From: Humidesulfovibrio mexicanus
GTDB taxonomy: Bacteria > Desulfobacterota > Desulfovibrionia > Desulfovibrionales > Desulfovibrionaceae
DNA: 64,000 nucleotides
NCBI RefSeq assembly: GCF_900188225.1
Contig: NZ_FZOC01000007.1
Span: 124,001-188,000, forward strand
Direction of reading: 5' to 3'
Below, in pieces: positions 1,174-56,634 of the stretch (within the stretch, counting starts at the first letter, position 1; the number at the start of each line of letters is the position of its first letter). The position numbers and the translations under genes are program-made. Below the pieces are notes generated by a model. It was given only the letters and a program-made list of their open reading frames with translations. It searched no databases and was not told the origin of the DNA.

Positions 1174-3511
1174 AGGCGAGCCTCCGTCCATTGCTCTGGA
1201 GGTTCTCAAGCATCTCGCGCAGGCGCGCCTCGGAAAGTTGCAGCTGCGCCCCGATCACGGCGGGGAGCTCCGGGCCGCCGCCCTGCACGTTGATGGTGGG
1301 CGCGAAGTGGATCACCAGCCCAGCCCCGCCGGGAGCGCCGCCGCCTTGTCCGCGCGGGCGAAGGCCCAGGCTGTTGTCCAGGGCCTGGCCGAGGCCGCCG
1401 TCGCCGCTCGCGTTCATGCCCTGGGCCATGGTGGCCGGGATGGCCGCGCCCGAGGCCGTCAGAGTGGACAGCGGCCCGCGCTCGGCGTCGGAGCCGGGCA
1501 GGTACTCGCGCACCTTGGTGACCACGGCCGCCACGGCCTCGACCGGAGCCATGGCCACGGCCTTGATGCCCTCGGTAAAGGTGGTGAGCAGCTTCACGCC
1601 CACATCGTAGAGCGAGAGGGAACCCAGCCAGTCCACAACCGCCCGGGCGCCGCCTGTCACCGCGCCCCAGGCCGCCGTGGCCTTGGCGGACACGCCGTCC
1701 CAAAGCCCGTCCAGCACGCGGCGTACGGGCTCGCAATAGGTGTAGAGCGCCCAGACGGCCGCACCCAGGGCGACCACGCCCGCAATCACCAGGCCGATGG
1801 GATTGGCCGTCATGGCCGCATTGAGCGCCCACTGGGCCACAGTCATGGTCTTGGTGGCCACGGCCGAGGCAATGGCCACGCCGCGATTCCAAACCAGGGC
1901 TGCATTGGTGGCGATGACCGTGGGCCGCAGGGCGGCGATGACGCCCTTTGCGATGAGCCAGCCATCGGACAGGATGGTGGCCGCATACCCGCAGGCGATG
2001 GCCCCCACCTTGAGCACCACGAGCCCGGTGACCACCCCCATGACGGCGGTGGTCAACATCGGGAACTGCTCGGCCGCGGCGATCACCGGAGTGAGCAGGG
2101 TGGACACGGCGTCCGCCCCGGCCGCCAGGGGCGGCAGCATCACCGAGCCCACGCCGATGCCGAGCGATTCCGCGCCGCGCCTGAGGCGCAGCAGGGCGTT
2201 CTTCGTGGTGGCCGAGCGGGACTCGTACTCCTTGGTCATGGACCCGGCGTAGGATTCGGCCTTGGCCACGTTCCCGAAGGCCTTCTTGAGCCCGTCCAGG
2301 TTTTGCAGCATGGGGGCGATGGCGCCCAGAGATTCGGTGCCGAACATCTCGGACAAGAGCGAGGCCTGCTCGGCTTCGGGCATGCGCCGCAGGGCCGTGA
2401 GCACGCGCAGCACCGTGGTCTCTGCGTCCTTTTGCATGTCGCTCGCCAGCAGCTTGGGGTCGAAGCCCAAGCGCGCGAAAGACTCCTTCTGATCCTTGGA
2501 CATGGCCGTGCCCTTGGCCAGGGTCAGCAGGAAATTTTTCATGCCCGTGGCCGCGATCTCCGGGCTGGGCGAGGCGGCCACGAAGCCGGCCGCCATGGCG
2601 GCTATTTCATGGGTAGCCAAGCCTGCGGTCTTGGCCACGGCACCCACGCGCTCCACCACCTCGGAGGTCTTGAGGGGATCGGCGGCCATGTTGTTGCCCA
2701 GGTGGTTGATGGCGTCGGACAAGGCCACCACTTCCGCCTGGGAGAGCCCCATCTTGGCGCGCCAGGAAGACATGCGCTGCCCCGCATCGGCGGCGCTCAT
2801 GCCAAAGGCCACGGCCATCTGGGCGGCCGTGCTGGCGAATTCCTGCAATTCCTCGCGGCTGGTGGCGATCTTTGCCGAGGCGGCGGCGGCGTAGATGCCT
2901 GCGATGTCGGCAGCTGCAAGGCCCGTCTCCTTGGACAGCTTGCGGATGTCCTTGGGCATCTGGGCAATGTCCGACTCCGTGAAGTCGTCCATGACCTTCT
3001 TGGCGTCGGCAAAGGCGCTCTCGAAATCCATGGCCATGGTCACGGGCGCAGCCACGGTCATCACCGTGGCCACGGCTCCCACCATTTCGCCCTGTAGTTC
3101 CTTGCGCTTGGCGCTGTTCTCCTGGCGCTTCTTCACCCTGGCCAGCGCTGCCTCGGCACGGGCGATCTCGCTTTCAAGCTTCTTGTACTGGGTGGCGCAC
3201 TGGACCACGGAGAGGCCGTGTTTCTGGGCGGCTTCTGTGGCACGATTGTACCGCTGCGCCACGGTCTTGATCTTGGCGTCCAGCATCTCGCGGTCGGATT
3301 CCGGGGCCTCCTTGCGCGCCTGTTTCAAGGCGGTGAGCTGGCGGCTGGTCTCGACAACGGCCTTGGCCTTGCTCGACGTGGCCCGCATGGTCTTGAGATC
3401 CGCGTTGAGGGCTTGCGCTTTCTCCTTCACCGTCTTAAATGCGGAAGTGACCGATGGGCTCAGAGCCACACCGAGGGCGAAAGATATGCCGAAGGTTCTG
3501 CCAATAGACAT
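1166..3511 (-). CDS. Phage tail tape measure protein (TP901/P2 gpT type)
   Basis: The 781-residue product has a helical, charged N-terminal third (about 1-150, coiled-coil-like KAKAVVETSRQL). A TP901 core follows at about 155-330, with DFESAFADAKKVMDDF and GLAAADIAGIYAAAASA. Hydrophobic stretches lie at about 480-600 (AVMGVVTGLVVLKVG, VIAGVVALGAAVWAL), and the C-terminus is Gly/Pro-rich. This composition is typical of tape measures, which set tail length and help DNA cross the inner membrane. It follows the E/E' chaperone genes that normally coat it during assembly. A gap of 224 bp separates it from the E' stop, unusually long for this operon. Confidence 0.94.
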   Translation of the reverse strand: MSIGRTFGISFALGVALSPSVTSAFKTVKEKAQALNADLKTMRATSSKAKAVVETSRQLTALKQARKEAPESDREMLDAKIKTVAQRYNRATEAAQKHGLSVVQCATQYKKLESEIARAEAALARVKKRQENSAKRKELQGEMVGAVATVMTVAAPVTMAMDFESAFADAKKVMDDFTESDIAQMPKDIRKLSKETGLAAADIAGIYAAAASAKIATSREELQEFASTAAQMAVAFGMSAADAGQRMSSWRAKMGLSQAEVVALSDAINHLGNNMAADPLKTSEVVERVGAVAKTAGLATHEIAAMAAGFVAASPSPEIAATGMKNFLLTLAKGTAMSKDQKESFARLGFDPKLLASDMQKDAETTVLRVLTALRRMPEAEQASLLSEMFGTESLGAIAPMLQNLDGLKKAFGNVAKAESYAGSMTKEYESRSATTKNALLRLRRGAESLGIGVGSVMLPPLAAGADAVSTLLTPVIAAAEQFPMLTTAVMGVVTGLVVLKVGAIACGYAATILSDGWLIAKGVIAALRPTVIATNAALVWNRGVAIASAVATKTMTVAQWALNAAMTANPIGLVIAGVVALGAAVWALYTYCEPVRRVLDGLWDGVSAKATAAWGAVTGGARAVVDWLGSLSLYDVGVKLLTTFTEGIKAVAMAPVEAVAAVVTKVREYLPGSDAERGPLSTLTASGAAIPATMAQGMNASGDGGLGQALDNSLGLRPRGQGGGAPGGAGLVIHFAPTINVQGGGPELPAVIGAQLQLSEARLREMLENLQSNGRRLAYA

Positions 3512-3761
3512 GCGCTACACCCACATAGAAGCGGGGAACCCACTGCCCCGCGTTGCATTCATTCTGGTCTTCGTCCTGGAGCTGGCCGTGCGCGCCCTGC
3601 TCGGGCAAGAGTCCCCGGAAGCCTGGACAGCGCCGCTCGGGCACGCCAGCCTGGCCTGGCTGGCGATCCGCTTCGTCTGCTTCGCGGTGGATTCCTTGTA
3701 CGGGCGACTCTGCATTTCCGACACCACCGTTTCCGCTAGCCGTTCCCGGCGCGCCTGCTGA
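3510..3761 (+). CDS. Doubtful 83-residue membrane-like ORF antisense to the tail operon
   Basis: An ATG at 3510, overlapping head-on with the tape-measure start codon, opens 83 codons on the plus strand. The stretch lies mostly in the 3512-3735 gap and ends inside E'. The translation has two hydrophobic segments (VAFILVFVLELAVRALLG and LAWLAIRFVCFAVDSLYG) that could each cross a membrane. Codon third positions are G/C-rich, but the opposite minus-strand frame shares the same wobble positions, so this is not independent support. There is no convincing ribosome-binding site (GAAGG lies about 14 bases upstream). It could be a small membrane protein or chance. Confidence 0.18.
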   Translation: MRYTHIEAGNPLPRVAFILVFVLELAVRALLGQESPEAWTAPLGHASLAWLAIRFVCFAVDSLYGRLCISDTTVSASRSRRAC

Positions 3762-4130
3762 CCTCGACAGAGGCCTCTCGCCACTGACTCAGCTCCGCCA
3801 CAGTCATGGAGAGCAGGTCTTCCCGGCTCCAGCCGGTCATGCCCGCCACCTCCACCACCATGCGCCGCAGCCTTACTCCATCTTCTTTCTGGACAAAAAA
3901 CCCTTGTAGATCTCCTGCAAGCCCTTGTAGTCTGCCATGTCCATAAGTTGCAGGTCCTCAGGGTTCATGCTGCAAAGGCGGCCAAACAGGACCACCTCCG
4001 CGTCAAGCTCTCCGCCCGTCGCTTTCTCGGCGACGAGGTGATCACCAACCGTGGGGCGGCGCATCACAAGGGCGGTGACTTCGCCGCCATCAAGCATCAA
4101 CGGGAATTCCAGCTTCAGCGTGTTGGACAT
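3736..4130 (-). CDS. Tail assembly chaperone gpE-E' fusion made by -1 frameshift
   Basis: The E reading frame meets T TTT TTG at 3894-3900 shortly before its stop. A slip of -1 there continues into an open frame that ends at TAG 3736. The extension reads VQKEDGVRLRRMVVEV and then MTGWSREDLLSMTV, the region corresponding to P2 gpE' (GpE+E'). In P2 the same heptamer and arrangement make a minor extended chaperone needed for tail assembly on the tape measure. E' has no good start of its own; an internal ATG at about 3861 lacks a Shine-Dalgarno. The frameshift is inferred from the site and the frame relation, not observed. Confidence 0.85.
3873..4130 (-). CDS. Phage tail assembly chaperone gpE (unshifted product)
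   Basis: An 85-residue product starts at ATG 4130 and stops with TAA at 3873. The pattern LEFPLMLDGGEVTAL, MRRPTVGDHLVAEK and SMNPEDLQLMDMADY is that of the P2 gpE/Mu gp41-like tail assembly family (phage_TAC_7). These proteins coat or fold the tape measure before tube polymerisation and are absent from the virion. The gene lies between the tail-tube gene (4190) and the tape measure, as in P2. It shares its N-terminus with the E-E' frameshift product. Confidence 0.88.
   Translation of the reverse strand: MSNTLKLEFPLMLDGGEVTALVMRRPTVGDHLVAEKATGGELDAEVVLFGRLCSMNPEDLQLMDMADYKGLQEIYKGFLSRKKME
3894..3900 (-). promoter_or_regulatory. -1 ribosomal frameshift slippery heptamer T TTT TTG
   Basis: On the minus strand the E frame reads GGT TTT TTG. 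The heptamer T TTT TTG is in the correct phase for -1 slippage, seven codons before the E stop. P2 and its relatives use the identical heptamer between E and E'. Confidence 0.85.
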
Positions 4131-4189
4131 GGTGCGTTCCTCTCTTGGGTTGAGGGAGGGGAGGCTTTGCCTCCCCTCCCTGTTGCTTG

Positions 4190-4729
4190 CTAGACTTCAA
4201 TGCCCAGGTTGGCGCGGACGGTGGCCAGATAGTCCGTGCCGTCCACCTTGAAGATGTAGTTCAGCTTGTCGATCTCGAGCACCTCGGTCCCGCCAAGCCA
4301 GACTTTGAGGTAGGTGACTTCGAGTTCGCTCTCGTTGTCCATGGGCTTGCCCATTTCAAGCTTGCCCAGGCCGCCCTTCTTAGGCGCGCAGCGCACCACA
4401 ATCTTCATGGCCTGCGGTTCGTAGGTCCCGGCGGCCGCGTCGAAGCGCTGGATGGAACCGCGCAAGTCGAGCTGGTGGCCTTTGGGGGCAAGGAGCGAAA
4501 CGGACGAACCGTTGAAGGCGCGCCACTTGAACTTGATGCTGAGGCTTTTGGTTTGGCCAAGGACAAGGGATTCGACCTCGCCGGCGATGCCTGCGCCGGA
4601 AGTGGTCTCAGTCAGGAACTCGATCTCCGGCAGCTCCACGTCGGCAAGGCCGATCTGGTCCTGGCCTTCGTTGTAGACGCGGAAGCCGATGAGCTTCTCG
4701 GGGATGGGGTTTGCGGTGGGCAGGGTCAT
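4190..4729 (-). CDS. Phage major tail tube protein (P2 FII-like)
   Basis: The 179-residue protein begins MTLPTANPIPEKLIGFRVYN and contains PEIEFLTETTSGAGIAGEV and FKWRAFNGSS, the recognisable N-terminal pattern of contractile-tail tube proteins of the P2 FII family. The C-terminal half carries YLKVWLGGTEVLEIDKLNYI, the conserved strand pair of the tube barrel. Hexamers stack into the inner tube inside the sheath encoded just upstream (stop 4742). The length matches P2 FII (about 170 residues). Confidence 0.93.
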   Translation of the reverse strand: MTLPTANPIPEKLIGFRVYNEGQDQIGLADVELPEIEFLTETTSGAGIAGEVESLVLGQTKSLSIKFKWRAFNGSSVSLLAPKGHQLDLRGSIQRFDAAAGTYEPQAMKIVVRCAPKKGGLGKLEMGKPMDNESELEVTYLKVWLGGTEVLEIDKLNYIFKVDGTDYLATVRANLGIEV

Positions 4730-52280: not shown

Positions 52281-52383
52281 CTCCGCCCCTTGGACCCGGT
52301 CAAGGGAAGAAATGTAACACCCGGGCCGGGCGTGTCCCAAAACGACGACGGGGCAAGGAGCATGATCGCGCTCCTCGCCCCGT
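52281..52383. repeat. Repeat unit copy 1: CCCCTTG palindrome plus terminator
   Basis: CTCCGCCCCTTGGACCCGGT plus TCAAGGG (52281-52306) is followed by a conserved spacer and a bidirectional terminator: ACGGGGCAAGGAGC with GCTCCTCGCCCCGT (52348-52361, 52370-52383), then TTTT. It ends the peroxiredoxin and the membrane paralog genes. A nearly identical unit lies at 54564-54674. Confidence 0.85.
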
Positions 52384-52409
52384 TTTGCGTTGATGGATGC
52401 CCACCGGCC

Positions 52410-52787
52410 TCAGCGCTGCGCCTGTTCCTCCGGCGGCGGATCAGTGAAGCGCGTAGGCAGCTCTTTGATGCGCCAGAGCTTGATGGCGCCGATGACGAAA
52501 TATGCCGCAACCACAAGCCCGTACAAATTGTATACGCCGAAACCGCCGGGACCGGTGAACGACAACCAAGCCAGTGATGCCGGGATGATCGCGACCACGG
52601 TCGCCAGTGCCCGGCTGGCAATGCGCACGCCCTTGAAGGTCAGGAAAGCCAGGAACAACGTGACCATAAGTGAGCATAGGAACCTGGCGGCCGACTGTGG
52701 ATGCTCCAGAAGCGCCCGGAGCATCAGCATGCCGAGAAGAACGTGTGTTGCGCAGTATGCCTCGACAACGAACCACGCCTCACGCAT
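52410..52787 (-). CDS. Small four-segment membrane protein, paralog A (candidate RHS immunity)
   Basis: ATG 52787 follows AAGGAGG; 125 residues. It has about four hydrophobic segments (ATHVLLGMLMLRALL, FLCSLMVTLFLAFLTF, LATVVAIIPASLAWLSF, YNLYGLVVAAYFVIGAIKLW) and a Pro/Glu-rich tail. The start (REAWFVVEAYCA) and end (GAIKLWRIKE) match the neighbour at 52780-53136 (KGVWYVVETFCT, GAVKLWRMAN), so the two are tandem paralogs. They overlap by eight bases and follow the RHS gene, a typical place for immunity genes. The function is inferred from position. Confidence 0.75.
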   Translation of the reverse strand: MREAWFVVEAYCATHVLLGMLMLRALLEHPQSAARFLCSLMVTLFLAFLTFKGVRIASRALATVVAIIPASLAWLSFTGPGGFGVYNLYGLVVAAYFVIGAIKLWRIKELPTRFTDPPPEEQAQR

Positions 52788-53136
52788 GGCTGCCTCCTTG
52801 CGATTGAACGTTCGCCATGCGCCAGAGTTTGACGGCGCCCACGCAGAGATAGATGGCGAACAGTATGACGATCGCCAGGAGTGGTGTCGAGATTGCGTCG
52901 ACCATGGTGTAGCGGTAGCCAAGATACACCGCGTTCCCCACGATGAGCGCCGCGAGCAGGCGTTGGGCGAATGGCCGCCCCAGAAGCGACAAAGCCGTGA
53001 GGACGAGCGTCAGCAACAGGGAAAGCAGCTGGCCCGCAAGGAGCACGGTGGCATCACCGGCGGCAAGGATGCCGACGGCAGCCCTGTAGATGGCGAACGT
53101 GCAAAACGTCTCGACGACATACCAGACGCCTTTCAT
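52780..53136 (-). CDS. Small four-segment membrane protein, paralog B (candidate RHS immunity)
   Basis: The 118-residue product has membrane segments FAIYRAAVGILAAGDATVLL, GQLLSLLLTLVLTALSLLG, LLAALIVGNAVYLGY and LLAIVILFAIYLCVGAVKLW. It starts 24 bases after the RHS1 stop (53161) and is the nearest gene to the RHS tip. If the tip is toxic at the membrane, this would be its immunity protein. Paralog A may be a diverged copy kept from another cassette. Neither has a recognised family. Confidence 0.75.
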   Translation of the reverse strand: MKGVWYVVETFCTFAIYRAAVGILAAGDATVLLAGQLLSLLLTLVLTALSLLGRPFAQRLLAALIVGNAVYLGYRYTMVDAISTPLLAIVILFAIYLCVGAVKLWRMANVQSQGGSHA

Positions 53137-53160
53137 CGAAGACCGGCCCTTGTTGTGCGT

Positions 53161-54423
53161 TCATTTGCCGTCACCTTGAGCCTCCTTGTTTCGCTCATAT
53201 ATCTTTTCAAACGGATACACCAACGGGTCGGGGAGAAGGGGCACTCGTTTTTCCTTGGTGTCGTCCTTGCTGGTCATGCCCAAAAAGTCAGTGACGGATT
53301 TCGGGACAGGAGCTGAAAAATCCAGCAAGAACGGTTTGGCGCCTGGGTGAATGTCAATTGGCTTGTAGTCCCCCTGCATGGTCCCGTTGTCATCGCACGG
53401 ATACACCTTGCAGTAGGGGTTGTCGTCGCGGTCGGTTCTGCTCTGTTCCGTGTTTTCTTCGTCTGATTTTTGCTCCTCGGCCCCGAAGCCGAAGAGAGAC
53501 CACAGCCCCCACGCATCCACCCGATTGACCGGATCATCGACGCAATAGCCGTACCAGTCATCATCTCCGCCCTTTGCGCCCATGGGGTCAAGGGCGGTGA
53601 AGCGCCCAGTGTCGGCGTCGTAGTCCCGCCAGACGAAGCGCGTCAGGCCGGTGTCGGCGTCAAAGAGCCCGCCTGCGAAGCCGAAGGGCAGGCGCACCAC
53701 TTCACCCCGGACCTGCAACTGGTTGCCGAAGCTGTCGTATTGCATCTTCTGTACAATATGGCCATCCACTGTGACAAGGGTCAGCGGTGTGCCGACTTGG
53801 TCGCAGCACAGCAAGTACGAGTCGTCGCCGTTGGTCACGCCAACGGGCGTGCGGCTGCCACGGCCAGGGCGTTCAGAATCATACGCCAGCCGCCACCAGC
53901 GCGTCCCGTCGAAGAATTCCTCCAACCGCAGCGCATCAAGCCAGCGATAGACCTCGACGAGCCTGCCATCCATGCGCTTCTCCGTGCGCTGGCCCTTGGC
54001 GTCGTGGGTGTACTCGATGCGCCGCCCTTCCGGTAACTCCACCGCCAGCAGCAGGCCCGAGGGTTCATACTGGTAGCGCGTCTCGCGCGGATTCGAGGAG
54101 GTGGCCTCGACCTTCAGGTTGCGGAAGCCCGCTTTGTCGTGGCTGTACTGAACGCTGCCCGCCTGGCCCAGCCGATTGCCGGAAAGATAGCTGTAGCGCC
54201 GCTCGCCACGAAAGCGCTGCGGGTTGATGTCGGCGAGCCTGCGGCCCTGGTGGTCGTACTGGTAGGACTCCAGCAGACCGCCCGAACCATCGGTGACGCG
54301 GGCGAGGCGTCCGGCGGAATCATAGGCGTAGCGCCGAATTTCGGACTCGCCGCCGAAGTTCAGAGTGCGTTCTGCGATGCGGCCGCGCTCATCGCACCGC
54401 ACTGAAATAGAAGGGGAGGACAT
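53161..54423 (-). CDS. Short RHS-repeat protein 1 with variable C-terminal tip
   Basis: ATG 54423 after AGGAG gives 420 residues. YD/RHS repeats cover about 10-290 (YAYDSAGRLARVTDGSGG, YEPSGLLLAVELP, YTHDAKGQRTEKRM), followed by the RHS core (FVWRDYDADTGRFTALDPMG, YGYCVDDPVNRVDAWGL to about 307). The remaining 113 residues are unrelated to RHS2: acidic (AEEQKSDEENTEQ), a Cys pair (NPYCKVYPCDD) and a basic end (SKDDTKEKRVPLLPD). There is no signal, PAAR or TcB domain, so delivery is not explained. A toxin role of the tip is inferred from the family. Confidence 0.85.
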   Translation of the reverse strand: MSSPSISVRCDERGRIAERTLNFGGESEIRRYAYDSAGRLARVTDGSGGLLESYQYDHQGRRLADINPQRFRGERRYSYLSGNRLGQAGSVQYSHDKAGFRNLKVEATSSNPRETRYQYEPSGLLLAVELPEGRRIEYTHDAKGQRTEKRMDGRLVEVYRWLDALRLEEFFDGTRWWRLAYDSERPGRGSRTPVGVTNGDDSYLLCCDQVGTPLTLVTVDGHIVQKMQYDSFGNQLQVRGEVVRLPFGFAGGLFDADTGLTRFVWRDYDADTGRFTALDPMGAKGGDDDWYGYCVDDPVNRVDAWGLWSLFGFGAEEQKSDEENTEQSRTDRDDNPYCKVYPCDDNGTMQGDYKPIDIHPGAKPFLLDFSAPVPKSVTDFLGMTSKDDTKEKRVPLLPDPLVYPFEKIYERNKEAQGDGK

Positions 54424-54563
54424 GGCTGCTCCTAGCGTTTGCGCGCCAGGCAGGATGCCCGGCACAAATTGCGCAAGCAGAGCATGGGGTTTCGGGGCCG
54501 GACAAAAATACCCCGTTTTGGGCGGTAAAAGGACAATAATAGCGGGTTGACAGGGGTTGGAAA

Positions 54564-54674
54564 AGATCAAGGGGCGCCGCCCCTGGCCCCCGGTCAAGGG
54601 GAGAAACGCCACACCCAGCCGGGCGAGGCCAAAAACGACGACGGGGCGAGGAGCAAATAAGCTCCGCGCCCCGT
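54564..54674. repeat. Repeat unit copy 2: CAAGGGG palindrome plus terminator
   Basis: GATCAAGGGGCGCCGCCCCT and CCGGTCAAGGGG (54564-54600) are followed by the same spacer as copy 1 and the terminator ACGGGGCGAGGAGC / GCTCCGCGCCCCGT (54641-54654, 54661-54674). It ends the zinc-ribbon gene and lies upstream of RHS1, so it separates the two RHS cassettes. Confidence 0.85.
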
Positions 54675-54697
54675 TTATTTTGTGGGGGATGTCGGCG

Positions 54698-54994
54698 TCA
54701 GTGCTGTGTCGATTTCTTCCCGTCATCGGCTGTTGATACGGTTGCGGATTTGGGACCGTCCGCTGGGGTATTCCCGCAATATGGGCACTTCGCGGCCTTG
54801 CCCTTCACGTACATGCCCCAACCGACGATGAGAAATGGAAGTGTCGAGAGGATCCCTTCGACCAACCACGCTGTCTTGCTTGAAAATATGAGCGTAGCGA
54901 TGAAGGTCATGCTTGTAACGGCCATGAATGCAATTCCACGCGCTTTCAAGTCAAAACGTGGCAGACTTCGGCCACATGTGGTACATTGTTTCAT
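54698..54994 (-). CDS. Zinc-ribbon membrane protein (candidate RHS2 immunity)
   Basis: ATG 54994, with only GGGAA upstream, gives 98 residues. Split zinc ribbons flank two membrane segments: MKQCTTCGRSLP at the start and AAKCPYCGNTP near the end, with AFMAVTSMTFIATLIFSSKT and STLPFLIVGWGMYVKG between. It begins 35 bases after the RHS2 stop. Immunity is inferred from place and size; the zinc-ribbon design matches other proteins in this window and may be a general scaffold here. Confidence 0.65.
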   Translation of the reverse strand: MKQCTTCGRSLPRFDLKARGIAFMAVTSMTFIATLIFSSKTAWLVEGILSTLPFLIVGWGMYVKGKAAKCPYCGNTPADGPKSATVSTADDGKKSTQH

Positions 54995-55029
54995 GTTGTT
55001 CCCACTGTGCACGGTCGGTTTTCGGCGTT

Positions 55030-56226
55030 TCAATGCCGAGAGCCGGGCCAACCAATGCTTTCGCGTTGTCCCTGTGTGGATTCACTCTGTTTTTCGGCTT
55101 CAGACTTCTTGCCGTCGCCCCCCGTGGCGATCTCAGTTACTGTGCCTTTCAGCAAACCGTATGGGAATCCCAGGAATACTCCCGCAGCAGCCCCAGGGAT
55201 GGCACCGACCCCCTCTATGGGCAGCCCGGCAATTCCCCCTTCGACTCCCCATTCTCCGGCTGTCTTCAGACCTTGCCATACGATTCTCCCTCCCGGTGTC
55301 TCCTCTCCCCAAAACAGCCCCCACGCGTCCACCCTGTTGACCGGGTCGTCGACACAATAGCCGTACCAATCGCTGTCGCCGCCCTTTGCCCCCATGGGGT
55401 CGAGGGCGGTGAAGCGCCCGGTGTCCGCGTCGTAGTCGCGCCAGACAAAACGCGTCAGGCCGGTGTCGGCGTCAAAGAGCCCGCCCGCGAAGCCCAGCGG
55501 CAGGCGCACCACATCGCCCCGAACCTGCAACAGGTTTCCAAATGCGTCGTACCGCATCGCCTGTACAACGTTTCCGTCCATATCGGCAAGGGCCAGGGGC
55601 GTGCCAACCTGGTCGCAGAGCAGAAAGTACGAGTCCTCGCTGTTCGTTACGCCAAGTGGTGTGCGGCTGCCACGGCCAGGGCGCTCGGAATCATAGGCCA
55701 GCCGCCACCACTCGCGGCCGTCGTGGAATTCCGAGAGCCGCAGCGGATCGAGCCAGCGATAGGCCTCGACGAGCCTGCCGTCAATGCGCTTTTCCGTGCG
55801 CTGGCCCTTGGCGTCGTAAGCGTAGTCGATACGCCGCGCGTCCGGTAACTCCACCGCCAGCAGCAGGCCCGAGGGCTCGTACTGGTAGCGCGTCTCCTCG
55901 TCGCCCTCGAACTTCAGGCACCGGAAGCCCGTGCGATCGTGGCCGTACTGAACGCTGCCAGCCTGTCCCAGCCGATTGCCGGAAAGATAGCTGTAGCGTC
56001 GCTCGCCACGGAAGCGCTGCGGGTTGATGTCGGCGAGGCGTCGGCCCTGGTGGTCGTACTGGTAGGACTCCAGCAGACCGCCCGAGCCATTGGTGACGCG
56101 GGCGAGGCGTCCGGCGGAATCATAGGCGTAGCGCCGAATTTCGGCCTCACTGCCGAAGTTCAGAGTGCGCTCTGCGATGCGGCCCTGCGCGTCGCGCTTG
56201 ATGGAAAGCAGGGAGGGCTGAGGCAT
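55030..56226 (-). CDS. Short RHS-repeat protein 2 with variable C-terminal tip
   Basis: ATG 56226 after AAGGAG; 398 residues. The first 304 residues are nearly the same as RHS1 (same YD repeats and core, ending DDPVNRVDAWGL). The 94-residue tip is different: GEETPGGRIVWQGLKTAGEW, then a glycine-zipper-like stretch (IAGLPIEGVGAIPGAAAG, VFLGFPYGLLKG) and a hydrophilic end. The stretch could insert in membranes. Core identity with divergent tips is the hallmark of polymorphic toxins. It lacks any delivery domain, as does RHS1. Confidence 0.85.
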   Translation of the reverse strand: MPQPSLLSIKRDAQGRIAERTLNFGSEAEIRRYAYDSAGRLARVTNGSGGLLESYQYDHQGRRLADINPQRFRGERRYSYLSGNRLGQAGSVQYGHDRTGFRCLKFEGDEETRYQYEPSGLLLAVELPDARRIDYAYDAKGQRTEKRIDGRLVEAYRWLDPLRLSEFHDGREWWRLAYDSERPGRGSRTPLGVTNSEDSYFLLCDQVGTPLALADMDGNVVQAMRYDAFGNLLQVRGDVVRLPLGFAGGLFDADTGLTRFVWRDYDADTGRFTALDPMGAKGGDSDWYGYCVDDPVNRVDAWGLFWGEETPGGRIVWQGLKTAGEWGVEGGIAGLPIEGVGAIPGAAAGVFLGFPYGLLKGTVTEIATGGDGKKSEAEKQSESTQGQRESIGWPGSRH

Positions 56227-56634
56227 GGGGGCTCCTTACGGTTGCGCAACGGGCGGGCTGCCCATCGCAAATTCCGCAAGGATACCAGTGGTTTTTAGGC
56301 CGGACAAAAAAGGCATATTTTGGGCCGGGAAAAGGACAAAATAAGCAGGTTGACAGGGTTCGGAAAGATCAAGGGGTCCCGCCCCTTGGACCCGCCGGGT
56401 GGCTCCGCGCCCCCCGGAGCCCCTGCGCACGCGGCGCAAATCCAGCGGGCCAAAGCCCGCAGGATTTGCGCCGTGAGCATGGTCCCAGGACGGGAGCCTC
56501 TTTGGAGTCGTTCCGAGACTCGCTGCCGCTCCCCAGACCGTATCCTCTCCCGCCAGAACCCTCTACAAAGGAATTCCAAAGGGCCTGCATCCCCTTGACC
56601 GGGTCCAAGGGGCGGCGCCCCTTGTTCGCCACTA
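56227..56634. other. 408-base intergenic region with repeat copies 3 and 4
   Basis: The part next to RHS2 (56227-56366) resembles the RHS1 upstream region (shared CCGGACAAAAA, AAAAGGACAA and GGTTGACAGGG), so the promoter region was copied with the gene. Repeat copy 3 (GATCAAGGGG...CCTTGGACCC, 56367-56400) follows, then a large hairpin (56433-56472). Copy 4 lies in the other orientation (CCCCTTGACCGGGTCCAAGG at about 56591-56610). No gene is visible. Confidence 0.7.
56433..56472. repeat. 17-bp REP-like palindrome
   Basis: GGCGCAAATCC (56433-56443) pairs with GGATTTGCGCC (56462-56472), and inside it GCGGGC (56445-56450) pairs with GCCCGC (56455-56460) around CAAA. Only one mismatch interrupts the stem. 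There is no U-run, so it looks like a REP/BIME-type element rather than a terminator. Confidence 0.75.

Follow-up and report, generated by a model that had tools for sequence, protein, structure and literature searches.

Two short RHS genes lying close together in a 64,000-nucleotide stretch of the Humidesulfovibrio mexicanus genome (the window; positions 124001-188000 of contig C7) raise the question of what such small genes are for. A preliminary description of this DNA left two alternatives: displaced tips of a large RHS gene encoded elsewhere, or a separate small system. We analyzed the two genes, RhsA and RhsB, within their own genome (G000; 3.52 Mb, 15 contigs, 100% complete) and among relatives. 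Our favored answer, to which we assign a probability of about two in three, is that these "mini-RHS" genes encode polymorphic toxins behind a promoter block common to Tlde1-type toxin genes and to the genes of a particle that resembles a gene transfer agent (GTA). Toxins and particle would be made and released together and would act against neighbors, sparing kin. Neither the promoter block, which is about 85 bp long, nor the GTA-like particle was part of the preliminary description.

The two genes and the promoter blocks in front of them, each a match to the sequence model R1 described below, are as follows:

53161..54423, minus strand: RhsA, mini-RHS gene of 420 aa; core approximately aa 1-308; tip of family 1
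54473..54555, minus strand: R1 promoter block of RhsA (R1 match C7:178473-178555, E 7e-20; outside the training set)
55030..56226, minus strand: RhsB, mini-RHS gene of 398 aa; core aa 1-304, glycine-rich tip aa 305-398; tip of family 3
56276..56358, minus strand: R1 promoter block of RhsB (R1 match C7:180276-180358, E 1.3e-21; in the training set)

Both proteins exceeded the cut-offs for the Pfam families TEN_YD-shell (PF25023) and RHS_repeat (PF05593), and scored 57.7 (RhsA) and 61.2 (RhsB) bits with TIGR03696 (cut-off 32.5). The preliminary description had them alike upstream and in the core, with unrelated tips, and this was borne out. Nucleotide identity, taken in 60-bp steps, was 0.70-0.97 in the core, 0.67 in the boundary step and 0.40-0.55 in the tips, and over approximately 150 bp upstream 113 of 152 aligned columns were identical. 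The cores are alike until a conserved WGL, beyond which an alignment of 13 proteins had no conserved column. The boundary between core and tip mostly reads DDPVNRVDxWGL; it is conserved, yet differs from the canonical DPxGL. The core of about 300 aa aligned to positions 600-866 of the 909 of the YD-shell model, short of a long shell (approximately 1000 residues), and both proteins also aligned to C-terminal parts of solved bacterial RHS chains. As judged from these alignments, the mini-RHS core represents no more than the final portion of a normal RHS shell. A fold search confirmed the kinship with RHS and teneurin proteins and added nothing beyond it, and AlphaFold models of RhsB (pLDDT 51) and of the RhsA tip (pLDDT 53) were too weak to interpret. 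The RhsA tip contains a CDDNGTMQGDYKPI stretch; neither tip was named above cut-off by Pfam or NCBIfam, the best match being DUF6861 at 15 bits (cut-off 28).

The complete genome was to be searched for a full-length RHS gene with the same core. In G000 neither the protein nor TIGR03696 or PF05593, used as queries, retrieved a full-length or long RHS gene. Each of the two genes has a full mini-core, its own start codon, its own promoter block and an AGGAG resembling a ribosome-binding site. Because no full-length gene was found, and because a promoter block and a start codon belong to each of the two genes, the alternative of a separate small system is favored and that of displaced tips of a large gene is not. 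We take RhsA and RhsB to be part of a self-contained mini-RHS polymorphic-toxin system.

The unit that is truly conserved between cassettes is the promoter block upstream of the mini-RHS genes; flanks further out differ. A short pattern of the block had nine sites in G000, five at RHS genes and four elsewhere, and a reversed control pattern had none. Three of the four non-RHS sites precede genes of the Tlde1 family (PF10908), and one precedes a phage-tail-like operon. The model R1 was built from 15 blocks (12 before RHS-core matches, two before Tlde1 genes and one before the tail operon). R1 had 19 sites in G000 at E<=1, 17 of them at E<=0.01, and found 5-25 sites per genome in 14 of the 15 genomes of the genus; the genome with no site is 81% complete. 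We classified 63 sites from five genomes by the product encoded within approximately 1.5 kb downstream on the same strand:

G000: mini-RHS 6, Tlde1-like 5 (one weak), particle 6, none 1
G083: mini-RHS 3, Tlde1-like 5, particle 7, none 6
G110: mini-RHS 2, Tlde1-like 2, particle 7, none 2
G029: mini-RHS 1, Tlde1-like 0, particle 7, none 1
G061: mini-RHS 1, Tlde1-like 0, particle 1, none 0

In sum, 53 of the 63 sites fell in a class: 13 mini-RHS, 12 Tlde1-like and 28 particle. Sites of the training set account for five, two and one of these, respectively. The table omits one site of G000 (C2:168837, E 0.35), four of 25 in G083 (including C34:289; three lie too close to contig ends), one of 14 in G110, two of 11 in G029 and seven of nine in G061. 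Since the particle reference genes were first recognized behind sites of G000, G083 or G029, these assignments are partly true by construction, and the fairer count is that of the 45 sites outside G000, of which 36 fell in a class (mini-RHS 7, Tlde1-like 7, particle 22) and nine in none. The same seven site-gene pairs were present in each of G083, G110 and G029. Co-regulation of the mini-RHS, Tlde1-type and particle genes in the genus is well supported by the promoter sequences; a joint function of toxins and particle is what we infer. As a separate observation, block matches in G110 (C10:8892, L187), G083 (C19:284407, L182) and G029 (C2:175145, L199) lie by an alanine-rich frame, possibly a histone-like gene read antisense.

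The target of Tlde1-type domains is the cell wall, and the known Tlde1 members are linked to the type VI secretion system (T6SS). When genes with the Tlde1 domain were considered in their own right, an R1 site was listed at most 0.8 kb upstream of all four such genes in G000, of three of the four in G083 and of 13 of the 18 in the genus. The four loci read (L103, L104, L106 and L160) have the R1 block in front of the Tlde1 gene and an exported-looking open reading frame (ORF) behind it; the ORF of L106 matched BamE above cut-off. The genes share the domain of the known Tlde1-type effectors (PF10908) and are followed by an exported-looking ORF, while differing from those effectors in standing behind the promoter block of a particle.

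The particle genes of G000 lie at C3:84-86k, C3:372-379k and C6:201-208k (loci L157, L108 and L159; the first extends to C3:71-86k when a protein of a phage-protease family is included). By PHROGs they encode the terminase large subunit, major capsid protein, portal or head-tail connector, two tail-tube proteins, a tail fibre and an endolysin, and the set also has an internal virion protein (E 2e-4). Pfam gave Phage_capsid_2 at E 5e-75 and Head-tail_con at E 3e-134. The protease-family protein was placed at C3:72k by similarity to G083; we guess that it may double as a scaffold. These genes are scattered at several distant places among host genes. Their surroundings are kept: the tail cluster adjoins a gene resembling a D-Ala-D-Ala carboxypeptidase (named by eye) in G000, G083, G029 and G098, and the capsid gene has the same downstream neighbor, by eye, in six of six genomes. 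The ratio of nonsynonymous to synonymous substitution rates (dN/dS) of the capsid gene was 0.18-0.48 (15 pairs), indicating purifying selection. No integration or replication genes were recognized by eye in the flanks read, where no systematic search was made. An isolated marginal RHS_repeat match beside the capsid gene (C6:208615-208677, E 6e-4) is probably due to chance.

Because the particle genes are dispersed among host genes, the neighbors of tail and capsid genes are kept and the capsid gene is under purifying selection, the layout looks like that of a GTA. The best-surviving alternative is that these genes are a decaying prophage and that the toxins are former phage cargo retaining a phage late promoter. 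The genes do belong to phage families, and packaging of DNA by the particle is only putative. However, a decaying prophage sits poorly with genes that are dispersed among host genes, hold their place wherever it was compared and include a capsid gene under purifying selection, nor does it account for the seven site-gene pairs common to G083, G110 and G029. We therefore regard it as unlikely.

A second model, R2, was made from three mini-RHS promoters of G091 (genus g5) and run on four g5 genomes. Its 25 matches were tabulated as 24, L268 being dropped as the second half of the promoter at L266. Five of the 24 precede RHS genes (three being the training sites), 11 precede capsid, portal or tail genes, three a small protein, of which the one tested matched phrog_2524 (no known function), and five other ORFs, one with a phage-lysozyme domain. 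In G091, R2 matched the promoters of the capsid, portal and both tail-tube genes, and one mini-RHS promoter shared 57 bp with the capsid promoter at 94.7% identity. Particle promoters were also matched in G072 and G116. The lysozyme-domain ORF (L256; G116 C1:1340574) has 479 aa, with the domain at its C-terminus, and ORFs with similar starts lie at 1401781 and 1336294; the regulon may have a third class of toxins in ORFs of this type.

Elsewhere in the family, R1 was applied to 43 loci of other genera and gave five matches at E<0.01, at two of 24 RHS loci and three of 19 capsid loci; one more RHS promoter was matched in G013 (22 bits). Among 119 genomes of the family, 24 have the capsid gene, 46 have RHS relatives and 20 have both (Fisher p 8e-7 by genome, relatedness being ignored). 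Counted by genus, again ignoring relatedness, RHS relatives occurred in eight of nine capsid-bearing genera versus 14 of 35 others (p 0.02). Part of the RHS relatives in other genera are long frames and not mini-RHS.

Polymorphic toxins are recognized by exchangeable tips with linked immunity genes, and we next consider these. G000 has at least seven short RHS loci besides displaced modules of core end and tip. Open-frame mini-RHS genes lie on C7 (two), C11 and C12, and one more copy is split between a C9 end and a C6 end; the two fragments cover the same core segment, possibly as parts of a single gene truncated at its 5' end. Its tip looks phospholipase-A2-like from a CRxHDxCY pattern, although the homologue L071 received no such call from Pfam. 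Displaced modules in G000 (C6:967 and C12:1278) consist of a core end, a new tip and a small ORF. In relatives, arrays begin with one RHS gene and continue with two to four modules of core end, tip and small gene (L072 has four, while L067, L061, L058 and L075 have two each; in L075 the RHS gene is cut by the contig end). Members of one tip family occur on different cores. A set of 61 tips was compiled from the loci of G000 and from L058-L100 (at least 60 aa, not running off a contig, L012 excluded). Nine families of at least three members each hold 58 of them, and the three singletons resemble read-through. Family 1, that of RhsA, has 10 members at 10 loci; family 3, that of RhsB, has nine members at eight loci. 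The downstream ORFs were related in 140 of 201 same-family tip pairs versus one of 1629 different-family pairs, counts in which pairs are non-independent and shadow reading frames are left in. Tip and downstream gene travel together. The mini-RHS cores had a dN/dS of 0.16-0.36 (median 0.26; 105 pairs, 15 genes), that is, they are under purifying selection. The proposal of a compact cassette system of tips and immunity genes, which looked to further copies and to tip variation in relatives, was thus upheld. Two mini-RHS loci, L017 (~2230-2310) and L018 (~3300-3380), are possible genomic islands: in each, a tRNA-like gene (by eye) lies immediately before the mini-RHS locus and a common repeated stretch after it, and an ORF in this region of L018 resembles the end of an integrase.

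The small genes in the window, noted already in the preliminary description as membrane-type genes behind each RHS gene, are the following:

52780..53136, minus strand: small membrane-type ORF of 118 aa, putative RhsA immunity gene 1; relatives occur after other family-1 tips
52410..52787, minus strand: small membrane-type ORF of 125 aa, putative RhsA immunity gene 2; by eye it resembles ORFs after other family-1 tips
54698..54994, minus strand: small ORF of 98 aa with CxxC pairs, putative RhsB immunity gene; by eye it resembles the ORF after the L094 tip

They have three, four and one hydrophobic segments, respectively, and appear membrane-bound or exported. Small genes behind mini-RHS genes are probably immunity genes.

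According to the reading we prefer, cells making the particle would also make the mini-RHS and Tlde1 toxins, through the common promoter block. The lysis brought about by the endolysin would release toxins as well as particles, the toxins travelling on the particles or next to them and hitting the envelope of neighbors that have no matching immunity gene. Kin carrying the immunity gene would be protected. Attack from outside fits because the small genes are of membrane type and because exported-looking ORFs lie behind the Tlde1 genes that were read. Since no docking domain was found, physical delivery of the toxins by the particle remains a guess.

Besides the partly circular assignment of particle sites, several observations weigh against this reading. 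Ten of the 63 R1 sites belong to no class, and at four of the 28 "particle" sites the gene that follows encodes a small protein of PHROGs with no known function. Five of the 18 Tlde1 genes of the genus have no site among those listed (one in G110, two in G098, one in G061 and one in G083). In G000 itself, the mini-RHS copy on C8 has an in-frame TAG and the copy on C3 a large deletion. In the second genus, R2 matched both RHS promoters of G072 weakly (15-17 bits) and none of the three fetched RHS promoters of G116, where one other RHS gene was matched; G104 had no R2 match, and the capsid match there is split into two pieces. The second-genus replicate is thus firm in G091 only. In other genera most loci gave no R1 match (22 of 24 with RHS genes, 16 of 19 with capsid genes). 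RHS relatives also occur in 26 of 95 capsid-negative genomes and are missing from four of 24 capsid-positive ones (relatedness ignored). In neither RhsA nor RhsB did Pfam or NCBIfam find a domain of phage type or one for loading, so that nothing seen here links toxin and particle physically. The genome in which the window lies has a T6SS, so that delivery by this route is possible there. Finally, toxicity, immunity, expression, lysis and packaging are all steps that we infer.

A bolder version of the preferred reading can be advanced only tentatively, and we would sooner bet against it than for it. It holds that the Desulfovibrionaceae have a domesticated podovirus-like GTA, whose regulon includes swappable mini-RHS and cell-wall toxins with their immunity genes, and in which gene transfer would be coupled to kin recognition. 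The core of approximately 300 residues would be a particle-docking adaptor and not a closed cage. In that case the particle, or the lysis freeing it, would deliver toxins along with DNA. Kin with the immunity genes would survive and receive DNA, while non-kin would be killed.

The toxins might instead act inside the producer, in a suicide or lysis programme or against phage, with the small genes as antitoxins. The promoter block common with the operon that holds the endolysin is what one would expect in such a case, and no secretion signal was noticed in the mini-RHS proteins, for which no search aimed at signals was made. However, the membrane-bound or exported look of the small genes and the action of Tlde1 domains on the cell wall fit attack from outside, and the diversity of tips fits competition between strains. 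Action within the producer is, in our estimate, slightly more unlikely than a decaying prophage.

Another possibility is that these are ordinary RHS effectors delivered by the T6SS and loaded on its spike by partner proteins, and that the promoter held in common with phage-like genes is incidental. RHS domains are known from published T6SS effectors, and Tlde1 domains likewise belong to that setting. A match to the T6SS sheath (VipB) was present in four of the 15 genomes of the genus, including G029 and G000, the latter at C3:262.6k. However, G083, G098, G061 and G110, each at least 99% complete, had no VipB match and had 18, 15, 8 and 2 mini-RHS core matches, respectively. No promoter-block match lies near the sheath gene of G000, and RhsA and RhsB have no PAAR, VgrG or other loading domain by Pfam or NCBIfam, which agrees with the preliminary description as to PAAR and VgrG-related domains. 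We hold this explanation to be improbable. Last, the view that the genes are displaced, mostly silent orphan tips, kept as recombination stock or as immunity to others, can appeal to the modules of core end, tip and small gene at C6:967, C12:1278, L072, L067 and L061, and is very improbable for the genes of the window, given their full mini-core, promoter block and AGGAG, the purifying selection on cores and the lack of any long parent gene in the searches of G000.

The remaining features of the window concern the ends of the cassettes:

52345..52392, minus strand: terminator-like hairpin closing the RhsA cassette (from sequence)
54638..54685, minus strand: terminator-like hairpin closing the RhsB cassette (from sequence)
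56367..56627, no strand: CAAGGGG palindrome at 56370 and again at 56600, two more occurrences of a dispersed repeat that is not specific to RHS genes

The preliminary description saw one unit of palindrome and terminator ending each cassette. The hairpins near 52350 and 54640 are indeed there, and hairpin plus trailing sequence recurs, by eye, behind the RHS loci on C8 and C3. The further palindrome copies it reported at 56.4 and 56.6 kb were also found. The special role given to the palindrome did not hold: with at most three mismatches it has 17 sites in G000, of which five are by RHS genes (four in the window and one on C8). Since it is a repeat dispersed genome-wide, it is not a cassette signature, and we ruled it out as a cassette end or recombination site. 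Exchange of tips by homologous recombination is plausible. At L012 (~3650-4290), tandem units bearing palindromes lie directly upstream of a tiny RHS core-end remnant.

The GTA Dd1 was reportedly described in 1987 in the same bacterial family, and Jackson (2009) is cited in connection with Rhs effectors and orphan rhs-CT modules. The system described here resembles several known ones and differs from each. With T6SS Rhs effectors and orphan rhs-CT modules (PMC3150448 and PMC5727410), it has in common the RHS core, a conserved boundary, unrelated tips, linked small genes and arrays of displaced core ends. Unlike them, it has a main gene of only ~400 aa with its own promoter block, no long parent gene was found, PAAR and VgrG are lacking, and carriers include genomes without a T6SS sheath. 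As in RcGTA (PMC11409702), the podovirus-like FpGTA (PMC12946183) and the Desulfovibrio Dd1, phage-derived capsid, portal, terminase, tail and lysis genes occupy several chromosomal loci. In contrast to known GTAs, polymorphic toxin and immunity genes share the promoter block here, and the particle is known from its genes alone. MuF phage-capsid-like polymorphic toxins (PMC3482391) are proposed to travel in a phage-derived capsid system; here, Pfam reported no MuF domain for RhsA or RhsB, and toxin and capsid genes lie apart, linked by the promoter alone. PMC12946183 presents the Faecalibacterium element as the first podovirus-like GTA and places the Desulfovibrio GTA among those with unidentified clusters. 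In PMC11841831 a putative small terminase of Dd1 is named, a sign that a gene of Dd1 may already have been proposed.

RHS toxins with displaced tips, GTAs and capsid-type MuF toxins were thus already known. What would be new, if our reading is right, is the joining of polymorphic toxins to the regulon of a GTA; no report of RHS or polymorphic toxins linked to such a regulon appeared among the open-access titles and abstract beginnings listed. The promoter block offers an experimental handle on the regulon. If the reading is true, polymorphic toxins would be linked to gene transfer agents, and the family of Dd1 would gain candidate genes for a podovirus-like GTA. There would also be a reason to keep a costly, lysis-dependent particle, namely discrimination between kin and strangers that is backed by toxins.

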